Under the pieces are notes generated by a model that was not told the origin of the DNA, did no database searches, and was given only the letters and a program-made list of their open reading frames with translations. The position numbers and the translations under genes were made by a program. This document shows positions 2,735 to 7,467 of a stretch of 36,070 bases of DNA, piece by piece. Source of the stretch: Bacteroidota bacterium (lineage in GTDB: Bacteria; Bacteroidota; Bacteroidia; Chitinophagales; Chitinophagaceae); the NCBI GenBank assembly GCA_003175695.1, contig PSRA01000047.1:1-36070 (forward strand). Direction: 5' to 3'. How positions within the stretch are numbered: the first letter of the stretch is position 1; each line of letters begins with the position of its first letter.

Positions 2735-2832
2735 TTGCAATTGAAATTATTGGAGAGAAGGCTGCAAAAGTCATTCATTCGAGGCCTGTTTCCTTCAGAA
2801 AATGATAAGTTGCAAGAAGTGGCAATCCGCAT

Positions 2833-2864
2833 ATTGTGATTTGAGAAAAATCATATTACATTTA
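2833..2864 (+). promoter_or_regulatory. Promoter/operator region of HTH regulator 1, conserved with regulator 2
   Basis: A 32-base segment ends in TACATTTA (2857-2864), which differs from the Bacteroidota -7 consensus TAnnTTTG only in its last base. ATTG lies 20 bases upstream as a -33-like element. The segment matches the one at 5445-5476 at 26 of 32 ungapped positions, although sequence further out is not alike. It lies 48 bases before the chosen ATG. Conservation of the spacer as well as the boxes suggests a shared operator, possibly for autoregulation. Confidence 0.6.
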
Positions 2865-2912
2865 ATGGCAGATCAGATTCACCCTTCCTCTAAATTCTTA
2901 AACCTTTTGGCC

Positions 2913-3917
2913 ATGGAGCAATCATCGGTTCAACAGTTGTTTTTTCAGCATATAAAAAATAACCTGGCTCCTCACCTCTCTTTTGTCGACGAAATCGGTG
3001 AAATCCTGGGCATCAGCAATGACAGTGCATATAGAAGAATCAGAGGCGAGAAGGAGATTACATTCGAAGAAATTCAAAAACTCTCATCACATTATAAAAT
3101 CTCCCTAGACCAGTTTCTTCATCTGAAAAGTAATTCCTTTCTTTTTTCCGGCAAGTTATCACAAGATGCCGATGGTTATGAACAATGGTTAAAATACTTG
3201 CACCAATATTTGACTTATCTGCTGGGCTTTGAACAAAAACATCTTTATTTCCTGAGTAAAGATATTCACGGGGTGTATTTTTTTCAGGAACCTGTGCTGA
3301 GTGCTTTTAAATCCTTTGTATGGATGAAATCATTTCTCAATTATGAAGACCTGAAAGGGAGAAAATTTTCCCTTAAGAATGTTGTCTATCCTGAGAGCCT
3401 CGAGCTGGCGAAGAAGCTCACCTATTTGTACAATCAGATTCCAACGACCGAGATTTGGAATTTGGAATGCATAAACGTACTGATCCAGCAGATCCAGTAC
3501 TATGCAGAGTCGAATATGTTCGAAAGTGATGAAGATATGAAGATTGTATTCGACAAGTTCATCCAACTAATTGATCATATTGAAAGACAAGCGGAAATCG
3601 GAAAGAAATACAACATGTATGAATCAATAAAACCCAATGCCGCAGAATTTAATCTTTTCTATAACGAAGTAGTTATTGGCGACAATAGTTTTCTTGCCGA
3701 CCTCGGCAAAGCCAAAGTTGCATTTCTCAACCACAGTGTTTTGGATTTTATGTCTACACAGGATGAACGATTCTGCAACCACATGCTTAATAATATCCAA
3801 GGAATAATCCGAAAGTCTACACAAATAAGCCACGTGGGTGAAAAAAACCGTAGTCACTTCTTCAATATGTTAAGGCAAAAAATCAATCGAAGAAGAAAAA
3901 TGCTTGGCGTCTTCTAA
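2913..3917 (+). CDS. HTH transcriptional regulator 1 (BetR-like N-terminus), paralogue of 5544-6557
   Basis: A 334-residue probable DNA-binding regulator. Residues about 22-70 form a helix-turn-helix of Xre/BetR type (VDEIGEILGIS, then DSAYRRIRGEKEITFEEI and KISLDQF). The remaining 260 residues are a C-terminal region I do not recognise, with conserved patches shared with the paralogue (TEIWNLE, GDNSF, NHSVLDF, IIRKSTQISHVGEKNR). An in-frame upstream ATG at 2802 would add 37 residues, but the paralogue begins MEQ..VQQLFFQHIKNNL at the equivalent Met and the conserved promoter lies between the two candidates, so 2913 is chosen. The stop directly abuts that of the convergent fatty acid hydroxylase. 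The target genes are unknown; the enclosed lipid gene is a candidate. Confidence 0.8.
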   Translation: MEQSSVQQLFFQHIKNNLAPHLSFVDEIGEILGISNDSAYRRIRGEKEITFEEIQKLSSHYKISLDQFLHLKSNSFLFSGKLSQDADGYEQWLKYLHQYLTYLLGFEQKHLYFLSKDIHGVYFFQEPVLSAFKSFVWMKSFLNYEDLKGRKFSLKNVVYPESLELAKKLTYLYNQIPTTEIWNLECINVLIQQIQYYAESNMFESDEDMKIVFDKFIQLIDHIERQAEIGKKYNMYESIKPNAAEFNLFYNEVVIGDNSFLADLGKAKVAFLNHSVLDFMSTQDERFCNHMLNNIQGIIRKSTQISHVGEKNRSHFFNMLRQKINRRRKMLGVF

Positions 3918-4532
3918 TCAATCGTGCTTATGGCCTTTAAAGTAGAAGGCAGTCACTTTTTCCGAAATCAATTTCTTACTGGACGGTCCTGTGCCAAAGA
4001 CCAGGTCCCAGCATGTACAGGATATACCGAAACACCTGTCGGGTTCTTTACAGTGATGAGTAATATGATATTCCAATAAGCGTGGAAAAACTTTCTTTGA
4101 CCATCTTTGATGCAAAAAATAGTGCATCATAAAGAACCAGAAAAAGCCAATCCATATTCCGGCAAGGAAGGTTATGAAATTATCTGTCCGACTGGAAATT
4201 GATATCAGTACGAATCCAATCAATACCATCGCCAGTCGTTGCTTTCCAGTTACCTTAATTTCGGTTGGGTGGGTATGGTGATGAAGATGGCGTTGTACGA
4301 TAGCATTTTGCTTATCAGCAGACTTTGAATGGTTCCAGAAACGATGTAGAATGTATTCAATGAAAGTCCATGTGAGCCAACCATCGATGAATAGGATTAT
4401 GTGAAATACCAAACGGTTTTCGCTGAACCAGTTCGCCAAGGCCAGGGGCACTATACAAATCAGGAAAAATATGCCGATACATTTGATTTGTTGCCTGAAT
4501 TCTATTATTCTGTTTGCAGTTAAATTTTTCAT
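3918..4532 (-). CDS. Fatty acid hydroxylase / sterol desaturase superfamily membrane protein
   Basis: An integral-membrane di-iron enzyme expected to hydroxylate a lipid chain; the substrate is unknown. With the Met at 4532 it has 204 residues. It carries the histidine clusters of the superfamily in order: EYILHRFWNH, QRHLHHHTHP, MMHYFLHQRW and EYHITHHCKEPD. Hydrophobic segments surround them (IFFLICIVPLALANWF, LAMVLIGFVLI, FLAGIWIGFFWFFMM). The layout resembles the catalytic half of fatty acid 2-hydroxylases acting on sphingolipid chains, which are plausible in Bacteroidota, but this is inference. An upstream in-frame Met at 4595 would start inside the relic repeat at 4585-4629, so the inner Met is preferred. 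It converges on HTH regulator 1 with no gap. Confidence 0.8.
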   Translation of the reverse strand: MKNLTANRIIEFRQQIKCIGIFFLICIVPLALANWFSENRLVFHIILFIDGWLTWTFIEYILHRFWNHSKSADKQNAIVQRHLHHHTHPTEIKVTGKQRLAMVLIGFVLISISSRTDNFITFLAGIWIGFFWFFMMHYFLHQRWSKKVFPRLLEYHITHHCKEPDRCFGISCTCWDLVFGTGPSSKKLISEKVTAFYFKGHKHD

Positions 4533-4584
4533 ACGGAAGTGGTTTAAGGTTGTGATGGAATTGATTTGTGATGTGCTTTCTTTC

Positions 4585-4629
4585 GTGTCCTTCAAAGTAG
4601 AAACGCCGGATCTTTTCGGTGATAATGAG
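4585..4629 (-). pseudogene. Relic of the 3' end of a second fatty acid hydroxylase gene
   Basis: On the minus strand this stretch reads LIITEKIRRFYFEGH, closely matching the intact hydroxylase C-terminus LISEKVTAFYFKGH at 3930-3971. From EK onwards 8 of 11 residues are identical. At DNA level a 14-base run (4589-4602 against 3934-3947) has a single mismatch. No histidine-motif sequence precedes it; the DUF6134-like gene ends 30 bases upstream. I read it as the stump left by a tandem duplication. The match is short, so chance or a conserved short peptide remains possible. Confidence 0.5.
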
Positions 4630-4658
4630 CGTTTGGTCCAAATTCATGGCTGTATTTG

Positions 4659-5312
4659 TTATTCGTTTAATACAAAATCTAAATGGAAAAGCGATTGGTC
4701 AACTTCCACTTTTGTACAAACCCCATTATGGTAAGTGTAGTAATTCTCGTGACCGTTAGGAAATTTTACCCGATACCTGCACGAATCGACTTTTTCAACA
4801 GGCACATATTTTTGAAAATTGTCGGAAAACACTTCCCGCAGACCAACCGGTTCCGTATAATAAAGCCATAGTATGGAAGCACGGATGGGATAATAAGGCA
4901 ATTGAGAAGTTCCAGATCTTTCCTTCAGCTGGTAAGAAAATCCTGTTGCCTGTACCTGTTGTTTCACTTTTTCATTTCCGTTGACGATGCGGCTTAGGTA
5001 GGACGAGACCAGGATACCCTTTTCAAAGATTGCTTCTTCTATAGTTTGAACTGAAATCATGACAAGAATCCTCATTTTTACATCTGACTCAATGCGGATC
5101 CGGACAATATTTGATTCCACATTTTCATACAGCCTTAAAGTACCCTGTTCGGAACCGTTATGGTATACTGTGTAATGGATGGTCTTTTTTTGGGCGGACA
5201 ATGATAAGGCCCATAAGAGCGAAAAACAAAAGGCATAAGCGAATTTGAGAGCTGGCGGTCTCCTGGATATTTTATAACGCCGGAGCAACCAGACAAGAAT
5301 TAAAGGAATCAT
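4659..5312 (-). CDS. Secreted DUF6134-like protein of unknown function
   Basis: A 217-residue exported protein. A signal peptide is visible at residues about 23-40 (FAYAFCFSLLWALSLSA, cleavage before QKK), but it is preceded by an unusual hydrophobic and basic leader (MIPLILVWLLRRYKISRRPP). No other ATG offers a shorter start, so the 5312 start is kept with caution. The mature part is beta-rich and opens with TIHYTVYHNGSEQGTLRL, the style of DUF6134 proteins, and it ends in repeated aromatic strands (YYTYHNGVCTKVEVDQSLFHLDFVLNE). I assign the family from memory of this pattern, not from a search, and no function is known to me. It is read in the same direction as the hydroxylase. Confidence 0.65.
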   Translation of the reverse strand: MIPLILVWLLRRYKISRRPPALKFAYAFCFSLLWALSLSAQKKTIHYTVYHNGSEQGTLRLYENVESNIVRIRIESDVKMRILVMISVQTIEEAIFEKGILVSSYLSRIVNGNEKVKQQVQATGFSYQLKERSGTSQLPYYPIRASILWLYYTEPVGLREVFSDNFQKYVPVEKVDSCRYRVKFPNGHENYYTYHNGVCTKVEVDQSLFHLDFVLNE

Positions 5313-5444
5313 AAAGTAAGTTTTAGGAGTTAATGTCTGGTGCTAAATTATTTTTTGAATGAGGGGAGTCCTAATTGCTTTCTGCTCCGTATTTATTAAA
5401 TCAAGCAAGCAGCGCCAGTGCGGCAGTTTTTGCAAATGGCTGGT

Positions 5445-5476
5445 ATTGCTAATTGCAAAAAATCATACTACATTTA
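5445..5476 (+). promoter_or_regulatory. Promoter/operator region of HTH regulator 2, conserved with regulator 1
   Basis: The segment ends in TACATTTA (5469-5476), a near-consensus -7 box, with ATTG 20 bases upstream. It aligns without gaps to 2833-2864 at 26 of 32 positions, including the spacer run AAAAATCATA. It sits 67 bases before the ATG at 5544. Retention of the spacer suggests that a protein, perhaps the regulators themselves, binds here. Confidence 0.6.
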
Positions 5477-5543
5477 TAGGAAGTAGCAGCTCCTGAGAAA
5501 ATCCATCTCCTTTTTTTGCAATAATTACTAAACAAGTTTGGTT

Positions 5544-6557
5544 ATGGAACAGCCTGATGTTCAGCAACTTTTTTTCCAGCATATCAAAAACAACCTGCCC
5601 CGGCATCTATCACTGGTTGACGAAGTGGCTGAACTCTTAAATATTAGCACTGATAGTGCTTACAGGCGAATTCGGGGGGAGAAAATGATGTCATTTGATG
5701 AGATCCGGACTCTATGCAAACAATTCAATATTTCACTTGACCAGTTCTTTTTCCTCACAAGCCAGTCCCTTATTTTCACAGGTAAGAATGCTGATAGCAG
5801 CGATTTCAGTTTAGAGATGCATCTACGTAGTATTCTGGCTGAGTTAGTCTACATAAATTCATTTGAGCGCAAAGAGATGATCGTTTCGAATAAGGATGTG
5901 ACCATATTTCATTATTTCAATTATAATGAACTAGCAGCATTCAAGTTCTTTTTCTGGATGAAAACCTTGTTACAGGTTCCTCTCTTTGGCAGGAAATTAT
6001 TTGATGTAGATGAAATGACTCAAAGCCTTCAAAATTTAGGCCACCAGATTATTGAAGAGTACAATAAAATTAATTCGCAAGAGATCTGGAATGTAGAAAA
6101 CATTCATACTATTATTTACCAGATAGAATATTATAAGGAAACCAAGATGTTTGCTTCTCCGCAGGATATAATCAACTTATATGAGTGCGTGGAAAAAATG
6201 GTAAATCACATTGAAAAACAGGCCGAACTGGGATATAAATTCGACGTCAACGGAAAATATCCTCCGGAAAAGGCGAGTTATAAGATGTTTGTAAATGAAT
6301 TTGTTCTTGGGGATAATTCTTTTTTTGCTGTTCTCAATGATACAAAGATTGTGCATATTAATCATTCAGTATTAAATTTTATCACGACTAAGGATACACG
6401 ATTTGTCGAATATACTTATCAGCATTTGCAAAATATCATCCGGAAGTCCACGCTCATCAGTGATGTTGGTGAAAAGGATAGAAAAAGATTTTTTGACCGA
6501 ATGCGGGAAAAGATACAGTTGAGGAAGAAGGCTGCTGCCAACTACAATCCCAAATAA
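5544..6557 (+). CDS. HTH transcriptional regulator 2 (BetR-like N-terminus), paralogue of 2913-3917
   Basis: A 337-residue regulator homologous along its whole length to the one at 2913-3917. The first 70 residues are about two-thirds identical by eye (shared VQQLFFQHIKNNL and DSAYRRIRGEK), while the C-terminal part has drifted to perhaps 40% and keeps EIWN, GDNSF, NHSVLNF and IIRKST.IS.VGEK. This implies similar DNA targets but different signals. The ATG at 5544 is chosen over a TTG two codons earlier because it matches the paralogue. The HMG-CoA lyase-like gene follows after 25 bases in the same direction and may be cotranscribed. The C-terminal domain is not one I can name. Confidence 0.82.
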   Translation: MEQPDVQQLFFQHIKNNLPRHLSLVDEVAELLNISTDSAYRRIRGEKMMSFDEIRTLCKQFNISLDQFFFLTSQSLIFTGKNADSSDFSLEMHLRSILAELVYINSFERKEMIVSNKDVTIFHYFNYNELAAFKFFFWMKTLLQVPLFGRKLFDVDEMTQSLQNLGHQIIEEYNKINSQEIWNVENIHTIIYQIEYYKETKMFASPQDIINLYECVEKMVNHIEKQAELGYKFDVNGKYPPEKASYKMFVNEFVLGDNSFFAVLNDTKIVHINHSVLNFITTKDTRFVEYTYQHLQNIIRKSTLISDVGEKDRKRFFDRMREKIQLRKKAAANYNPK

Positions 6558-6582
6558 GTTCATTATTGCTTAGTTTCGCTGC

Positions 6583-7467
6583 ATGGAAAAGCAGCCAGCG
6601 GAAGGCCAAAAGGGAAGGATTCACCTCGTTGAATGCCCCAGGGATGCCATGCAGGGATGGAAGAGCGTGATTCCGACCACCGAAAAGATCTCTTATCTAA
6701 ATCAGCTATTACAAGTCGGTTTTGGCACACTCGATTTTGGAAGTTTTGTATCTCCCAAGGCCATTCCGCAGATGGCAGATACAAAGGAAGTGATTGGTGG
6801 GCTGGACATTTCGGCTACCCATACCCGCCTGCTTGCCATTGTGGCCAATTTGCGGGGTGCCGAAGAGGCCGCTGCCTTTGATGAGATCAGTTTTATTGGT
6901 TTCCCCTTTTCTATTTCAGAGACGTTCCAACAAAGAAATACCAATAGCTCCATGGCAGAGTCCCTGGATAGGGTAAAAAAGATTCAGGAACTTTGTATGT
7001 CCCGGAACAAAGAATTGGTAATCTATATTTCCATGGCTTTTGGCAATCCATATGGTGATCCTTATGACAAGAACATTGCATTGGATTGGGCATTCAAATT
7101 GGGTTCCCTCGGCATTAAAACTATTTCGCTGGCTGACACAGTAGGATTGGCTACGCCGGATCAGGTTTTTGAATTGACCAGCTTTTTGGTGAAAGAAATG
7201 CCGAATCATGAAATCGGCGTTCATTTGCACTCCAGGCCCGAAAACAGGATGAAAAAAATAGATGCGGCTCTGCAGGCAGGGTGTTTACGGTTCGATGGTG
7301 CATTGAAGGGCATTGGTGGTTGCCCCCTGGCCAATGATGAATTGGTTGGCAATATGGACACGGAATTGATGATAGAATATTTTAATGAGAAAAGACTACT
7401 CGGACCTCTAAACCACCAGGCACTCGCCAGGAGCATTGCCCTGGCAAACGAGATATTTATATCATGA
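6583..7467 (+). CDS. Hydroxymethylglutaryl-CoA lyase-like enzyme (HMGL family)
   Basis: A 294-residue TIM-barrel enzyme expected to split 3-hydroxy-3-methylglutaryl-CoA into acetoacetate and acetyl-CoA, the last step of leucine breakdown. The catalytic features of HMG-CoA lyases are present: ECPRDAMQ (Arg20 and Asp21), GSFVSPKAIPQMAD near residue 53, metal-binding VHLHS (His214 and His216), the active-site loop GIGGCPLA (Cys247), and Asn257. The usual HCHD is HLHS here, so the Asp after the second metal His is lost; the effect is unknown. It lies 25 bases after HTH regulator 2. A related aldolase specificity such as another 3-hydroxy-acyl-CoA cannot be excluded. Confidence 0.87.
   Translation: MEKQPAEGQKGRIHLVECPRDAMQGWKSVIPTTEKISYLNQLLQVGFGTLDFGSFVSPKAIPQMADTKEVIGGLDISATHTRLLAIVANLRGAEEAAAFDEISFIGFPFSISETFQQRNTNSSMAESLDRVKKIQELCMSRNKELVIYISMAFGNPYGDPYDKNIALDWAFKLGSLGIKTISLADTVGLATPDQVFELTSFLVKEMPNHEIGVHLHSRPENRMKKIDAALQAGCLRFDGALKGIGGCPLANDELVGNMDTELMIEYFNEKRLLGPLNHQALARSIALANEIFIS

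Follow-up and report, generated by a model that had tools for sequence, protein, structure and literature searches.

Two paralogous transcription regulators in a Chitinophagaceae genome carry near-identical DNA upstream of their genes, which raises the question of whether both are governed by one operator, and by themselves or each other. The genes, here R1 and R2, lie in a 36,070-nucleotide (nt) stretch (Bacteroidota bacterium, assembly GCA_003175695.1, contig PSRA01000047.1, positions 1 to 36,070; this whole stretch is the window). An initial annotation had described them as helix-turn-helix (HTH) proteins and suggested a shared operator with mutual or self regulation. The analysis indicated that the upstream element, E1, is not private to R1 and R2, but recurs family-wide, in many relatives of Chitinophagaceae type.

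R1 and R2 Share a Conserved HTH and an Upstream Segment

R1 and R2 were aligned by BLASTP over residues 1–329 of each, with 150 of 330 positions identical (45%) and 2 gap positions, so they are homologous end to end, as first noted. Identity was 50/75 (67%) in residues 1–75, which hold the HTH, and 100/258 (39%) beyond, confirming the far stronger conservation of the DNA-binding part and showing that the C-terminal parts, whose relatedness had been left for checking, align as well. Both were the sole matches at E ≤ 0.001 in the source genome, which is 79% complete. Their start codons at 2913 and 5544 are consistent with the family alignment, while a mechanical open reading frame (ORF) list puts the starts earlier, at 2802 and 5538.

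The N-terminus (about residues 1–70) is an XRE-type HTH. R1 matched BetR with 23.7 bits (cut-off 21.6) and R2 with 20.9 bits, just under the same cut-off, and among 35 family members tested against Pfam at E ≤ 0.1, BetR was found in 33 and HTH_3 in 30. Structure matches of this part include DdrO, ClgR, PrgX (Z 8.7 over 66 residues), and Listeria 3op9 (Z 8.6 over 69). A Terpene_synth_C match in R1 was set aside, as its 17.4 bits fall below the cut-off of 26.3.

Upstream of the genes, positions 2833–2864 and 5445–5476 are identical at 26 of 32 positions, while the highest match among 2000 simulated pairs (first-order Markov sequences built from both 160-nt upstream regions) was 23/32, reached twice. 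The flanks at the same offset matched at background level (8/60 before, 11/45 after). These results uphold the near-identity that the initial annotation had reported for the two segments.

E1 Is Conserved in Position and Specific to the Family

A de novo search of 82 family upstream regions returned the motif TTTGCAattaTTaCyAAA (best log-likelihood 276; width 24, 40 starts), with a log-likelihood of 76–80 in three mononucleotide shuffles of 12 starts each. After this motif was masked, the second pass returned TATTGnTTTTTGCAAAAAAT, which is the upstream segment already noticed in the window. Models of E1 and of a second element, E2, were then retrained on 49 upstreams, that is, 54 chosen from outside the Cytophagales-labelled set, minus three near-duplicates, R1, and R2. 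With R1 and R2 so held out, the two best E1 sites on both strands of the window were those of R2 (5444, 22.3 bits) and R1 (2832, 16.8 bits), followed by 25518 (13.7 bits), and 113 control upstreams, drawn from the same loci, gave no score above 12.2 bits. The segments thus stand out as the top pair in the window, while the element itself recurs in many relatives rather than marking this pair. In the source genome, the E1 pattern at up to 3 mismatches occurred solely at 5446 and 2834, the pattern being derived from these two sites themselves.

E1 scored at least 16 bits in 18 of the 54 upstreams, and in 17 of these, near-duplicate pairs L077/L081 and L079/L080 included in the count, it lay 96–102 nt before the ATG. 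The exception is R1, where E1 begins 81 nt upstream of the ATG, compared with 100 nt in R2. The relatives therefore have more in common than the −7 box on which the upstream alignment was to be judged: the spacing is kept, and so is the spacer in most E1-bearing genes. The TTG of E1 resembles the −33 TTG box of Bacteroidota primary-sigma promoters. Its other box, TACATTTA, matches TAnnTTT and not the final G of TAnnTTTG, the −7 consensus that PMC9723704 gives for flavobacteria.

Among 22 E1s, the one nearest to that of R1 was that of R2 (27/34), and reciprocally, closer than any orthologue's. Just 7 of 231 E1 pairs scored above the R1–R2 pair, and the two share nine departures from the consensus, tied for most. 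A tree of 96 rows places R1 beside L066, a protein from the same genus (support 100/97); R2 clusters there with L032, L033, L078, L084–L087, and L092 in a group of nine rows whose support (82/94) stays under the starred level. R1 and R2 are therefore in different clades and not products of a recent duplication, and as their E1s are nonetheless mutually nearest, the version of the operator that a gene carries tracks its genome more closely than its place in the protein tree.

A Second Element, E2, Precedes R2 and Not R1

E2 of R2 begins 29 nt and ends 9 nt before the ATG. It ranked first on both strands of the window (5515, 21.3 bits), followed by the same place on the opposite strand (16.8 bits) and 33854 (14.2 bits); in the 113 control upstreams, the maximum was 16.1 bits and the 95th percentile 12.7 bits. 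The best E2 score upstream of R1 with the held-out model was 4.5 bits, and the distance from E1 to the ATG is 19 nt shorter in R1 than in R2. Across the 54 upstreams, E2 of at least 14 bits was found 24–32 nt before the ATG in 16, together with E1 in 13; the E1-to-E2 distance was 69–71 nt in 13 of 15 and 39 nt in two. By eye, an E2-like box often stands about 40 nt before the ATG as well. Five of the eight top E2 controls were genes divergent from R. In three of these five, L104 (16.1 bits), L108 (14.5 bits), and L100 (13.5 bits), what the E2 model scores is the opposite strand of the E1 spacer that belongs to R, as if one protein read both.

In another subclade, the near-perfect palindrome TTACGGATTTTCCGTAA or variants of it occupy the position of R2's E2, starting mostly 27–30 nt before the ATG (L106:4001, L109:6001, the second gene of L104, L165, and others). 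Two genomes hold both operator types, G427 (L106 and L077) and G510 (L104 and L075). Where the recognition-helix residue matching position 39 of R2 is Val, 12 members have TTACGG, 1 TTTGCAA, and 3 neither; where it is Ala, the counts are 2, 25, and 82. No specificity claim was made for this residue, because the association of Val with TTACGG is largely that of one clade.

No E2 of at least 16.2 bits was present in 28 Cytophagales upstreams; L039, set aside with the Cytophagales rows, has an E2-like site and falls among the Chitinophagaceae-type rows of the tree. By eye, the upstreams of several Algoriphagus loci (among them L037, L038, L042, L043, and L045) resemble one another around a stretch similar to CATACATT, which is like neither E1 nor E2, and the operator of this group may differ.

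A weak operator-like site between E1 of R2 and the divergent DUF6134 gene (Table 1) scored below the control 95th percentile and may be due to chance. G501 has a one-mismatch E2-like site (L122, 1501–1518) directly upstream of a gene whose sequence resembles that of a metallophosphoesterase gene.

The C-Terminal Domain Has a Predicted Phospholipase-D-like Fold

The initial annotation could not name the C-terminal domain, and no Pfam or NCBIfam family above its cut-off covers it. AlphaFold2 predicted R2 with a predicted local distance difference test (pLDDT) score of 89.6, and the domain alone with a pLDDT of 92.4 and a predicted template modelling (pTM) score of 0.90. The structure search that had been proposed gave an answer: SauUSI (Z 9.0), F13 and NucT (8.3 each), FAM83B and polyphosphate kinase (8.1 each), PLD4 (8.0), Zucchini (7.8), TrmBL2 (7.6), and TrmB (7.1). 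All 50 matches listed are, as we take them, phospholipase-D (PLD)-fold proteins or contain such a domain, and because this list is consistent, the PLD-like reading of the predicted fold is persuasive. By the tool's own warning, a Z of 7–8 can reflect a common arrangement.

The predicted fold resembles that of PLD-superfamily nucleases such as NucT, Zucchini, and the N-terminal domain of SauUSI; unlike in these, the catalytic motif HxK(x)4D is not conserved in the R family, being present in just two of the 96 members and there at non-corresponding positions (residues 79 and 148). By analogy with TrmB, the domain is probably a sensor. PrgX, Rgg2, ComR, and PlcR likewise have an N-terminal XRE-type HTH and a C-terminal sensor, but their C-terminal parts are helical repeats, whereas that of R aligns with PLD-like proteins. 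The archaeal TrmB and TrmBL2 likewise place an HTH before a similar predicted fold (aligned over 122 and 128 residues, respectively), and differ in that the HTH of R1 and R2 is of XRE type. R1 and R2 had no match to the TrmB Pfam family at E ≤ 1, nor is it among the families shown for the 35 members tested (E ≤ 0.1). According to PMC4158304, the C-terminal effector domain of TrmB binds sugars, and TrmBL2 is without the sugar-binding part. A sensor part of this fold would be unusual among bacterial regulators. No paper on the R family was found among the titles and abstract openings listed by searches of the open-licence PMC library.

A Proposed Model of Autoregulation and Its Alternatives

The homology of R1 and R2, the position of the elements and, in the tests made, their family specificity, and the gene neighbourhood are established. 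From these we infer that both proteins bind DNA, repress rather than activate, cross-regulate, act on neighbouring targets, and respond to a ligand. We give an even chance to the reading that R1 and R2 are one-component regulators which control their own genes, sense through a PLD-fold domain, and share one operator. Autoregulation would follow from the sites being conserved before R genes; self-regulation is the natural inference, and mutual regulation is plausible. In the proposed mechanism, a Bacteroidota-type promoter would read R2, the 20-nt spacer of E1 would hold the operator O1, and a second operator, O2 (that is, E2), would stand about 70 nt past O1, directly before the start codon. 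Protein at O1 would exclude RNA polymerase and protein at O2 would assist through cooperativity or as a roadblock, giving a negative autoregulation that a ligand of the C-terminal domain would relieve. R1 would have retained E1 and not E2. With one version of E1 before both genes and 67% identity between the HTH parts, each protein is likely to act at its own promoter and at the other's. Regulation probably extends to the adjacent hydroxylase and DUF6134 genes, and the signal sensed may be linked to lipids.

Several observations weigh against this reading. E1 exceeded the control maximum in just 7 of 36 further relatives, although its place in all seven, 96–106 nt before the ATG, speaks for the reading; E2 did so in just 8, five of these at 26–34 nt. 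This check took 40 extra upstream stretches, which gave 50 gene hits (none in L176), of which 3 duplicated ones already used and 11 had too short an upstream; the 36 counted include some genes that come second in a tandem pair and have coding sequence before them, and the L147 upstream is the same as one already used. The spacer of R1 is degenerate and lacks the GC core of the family consensus; alone it scored 5.3 bits, less than the 6.1 bits that are the median of the controls' best-anywhere scores, and the E2 model does not see the E1 spacer of R2 (2.6 bits, reverse strand). Operator symmetry is weak: E2 of R2 pairs at 6 of 8 positions, and an unsupervised search for 17-bp inverted repeats found no excess in 138 family upstreams over 113 controls, with a mean of 5.10 of 8 pairs vs. 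4.96 (p 0.14) within the last 45 nt before the start, so a symmetric operator of the TTTGCAA type is not claimed. Nor is a wider E2 regulon, since the pattern at up to 1 mismatch gave 81 hits in 18 genomes vs. 76 for the reversed control. Hits per genome ranged from 1 to 11; nine were perfect, five of these before R genes, and at 13 hit loci inspected, two hits were before R genes (L116, L117), six inside a mechanical ORF, and five outside. The fold scores are also middling, with Z at most 9.0 and no Foldseek match at E ≤ 0.001 (top match TrmBL2, E 2.2e-3). The initial interpretation is supported in part: a shared operator is backed by the spacing and, mostly, the spacer that relatives keep, while the two promoters are unequal, R2 having a second site that R1 lacks and the R1 spacer being weak.

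An unlikely alternative is that E1 is no operator at all but a strong core promoter, inherited from a common ancestor, whose A-tract serves the polymerase. It would account for the −33 and −7 boxes within E1 and for the missing GC core in R1, but not easily for the control upstreams of the same loci staying at or below 12.2 bits, nor for the R2 spacer, which alone reached 11.6 bits against a control 95th percentile of 9.7, with one control at 13.5; both boxes at E1 spacing occurred in just 2 control sites, too few for a test. The likeness of the two E1s might instead reflect local copying, by gene conversion or recent promoter transfer, rather than a binding constraint. The genes are 2.6 kb apart, their E1s are closer to each other than either is to its own clade, and the flanks are unmatched; we nevertheless consider copying improbable, as the same-genus L069 has a similar E1 (25/34 to R1, 24/34 to R2) and this E1 version therefore predates the source genome.

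That E2 works in the RNA leader to influence translation initiation, and not as an operator in the DNA, appears quite improbable. It lies just 9 nt before the R2 ATG, and Bacteroidota, according to PMC6847099, have no Shine-Dalgarno sequences and adjust initiation through features of the leader. Against this, control genes do not reach its strength, the best copy is 57–60 nt before the ATG in L085, L086, and L032, TTACGGATTTTCCGTAA stands at the same place in another subclade, and an Rfam scan of the window gave no match at or above its cut-off.

If the autoregulatory reading with a shared operator is true, the pair would represent the TrmB design in a bacterium, built on an XRE HTH, and would offer a natural setting in which to study how duplicated regulators remain wired or become insulated. 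For the R family, the analysis supplies a prediction of the sensor fold, a map of promoter and operator sites, and candidate target genes. A broader proposal is doubtful and is offered tentatively. R1 and R2 would belong to a widespread, unstudied family joining an XRE HTH to a catalytically dead PLD-fold domain that senses a lipid or phospho-ligand, and steering local membrane-lipid genes and itself. Half-sites would differ by subclade (TTTGCAA, TTACGG) at the same place, and most paralogues would be insulated, with R1 and R2 cross-wired through one operator.

Family Distribution and Gene Neighbourhood

A sample of 198 genomes from the order contained relatives of R in 50, and one of 394 from the family contained them in 104, some as tandem pairs; named genera are Algoriphagus, Cyclobacterium, Aquiflexum, Lunatimonas, and Hymenobacter. 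Of nine other listed genomes that share the genus of the window, five gave one match and four none.

Table 1. Positions of the regulators, their upstream elements, and neighbouring genes in the window.
Feature	Positions	Strand	Description	Evidence
R1	2913..3917	+	XRE-type HTH and predicted PLD-like C-terminal domain	R2 homology, BetR match, family alignment
R2	5544..6557	+	R1 paralogue; structure predicted	Homology, family alignment, AlphaFold2
E1 of R1	2832..2865	+	Putative promoter and operator O1	TTG 2834–2836, 20-nt spacer, TACATTTA 2857–2864
E1 of R2	5444..5477	+		TTG 5446–5448, 20-nt spacer with TTGCAA core, TACATTTA 5469–5476
E2 of R2	5515..5534	+	Putative operator O2, TTTGCAAT-like	Held-out model 21.3 bits; no R1 counterpart
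Weak operator-like site	5420..5439	.	Between E1 of R2 and the divergent DUF6134 gene	10.1 bits forward, 8.6 reverse
Fatty-acid hydroxylase gene	3918..4535	-	Putative target	PF04116 47.6 bits (cut-off 31)
DUF6134 gene	4659..5312	-	Divergent from R2; putative target	PF19630 78.1 bits (cut-off 27.9)

The order MetK, NUDIX, RlmB, variable genes, R, HMG-CoA-lyase-like, GSCFA recurs, as we read it, whole or in part at many Chitinophagaceae-type loci. Neighbours of R also include C8, an unnamed protein with no Pfam family above cut-off (10 loci), DUF6134 (cluster C17; 7 loci including the window), a CAAX-protease-like protein, two short-chain dehydrogenases, and DUF6268. The hydroxylase that the initial annotation placed between the two R genes matches its Pfam family well (Table 1), and FA_hydroxylase genes lie near R in 17 of 53 long loci, namely 15 of 29 Cytophagales-labelled and 2 of 24 others, a count tempered by the interrelation of the Cytophagales loci; a desaturase gene is near R in two loci. 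As the source genome has just 8 FA_hydroxylase genes, one should uncommonly neighbour R by chance.

No RlmB or lyase homologue was found at the locus of the closest R1 orthologue (L095, G407), which still adjoins three of the recurrent neighbours, genes of clusters C8, C18, and C20. A same-genus relative of R in G501 (L111, about 5998–6903) is broken by two in-frame TAA stops, its match starting from query residue 29.

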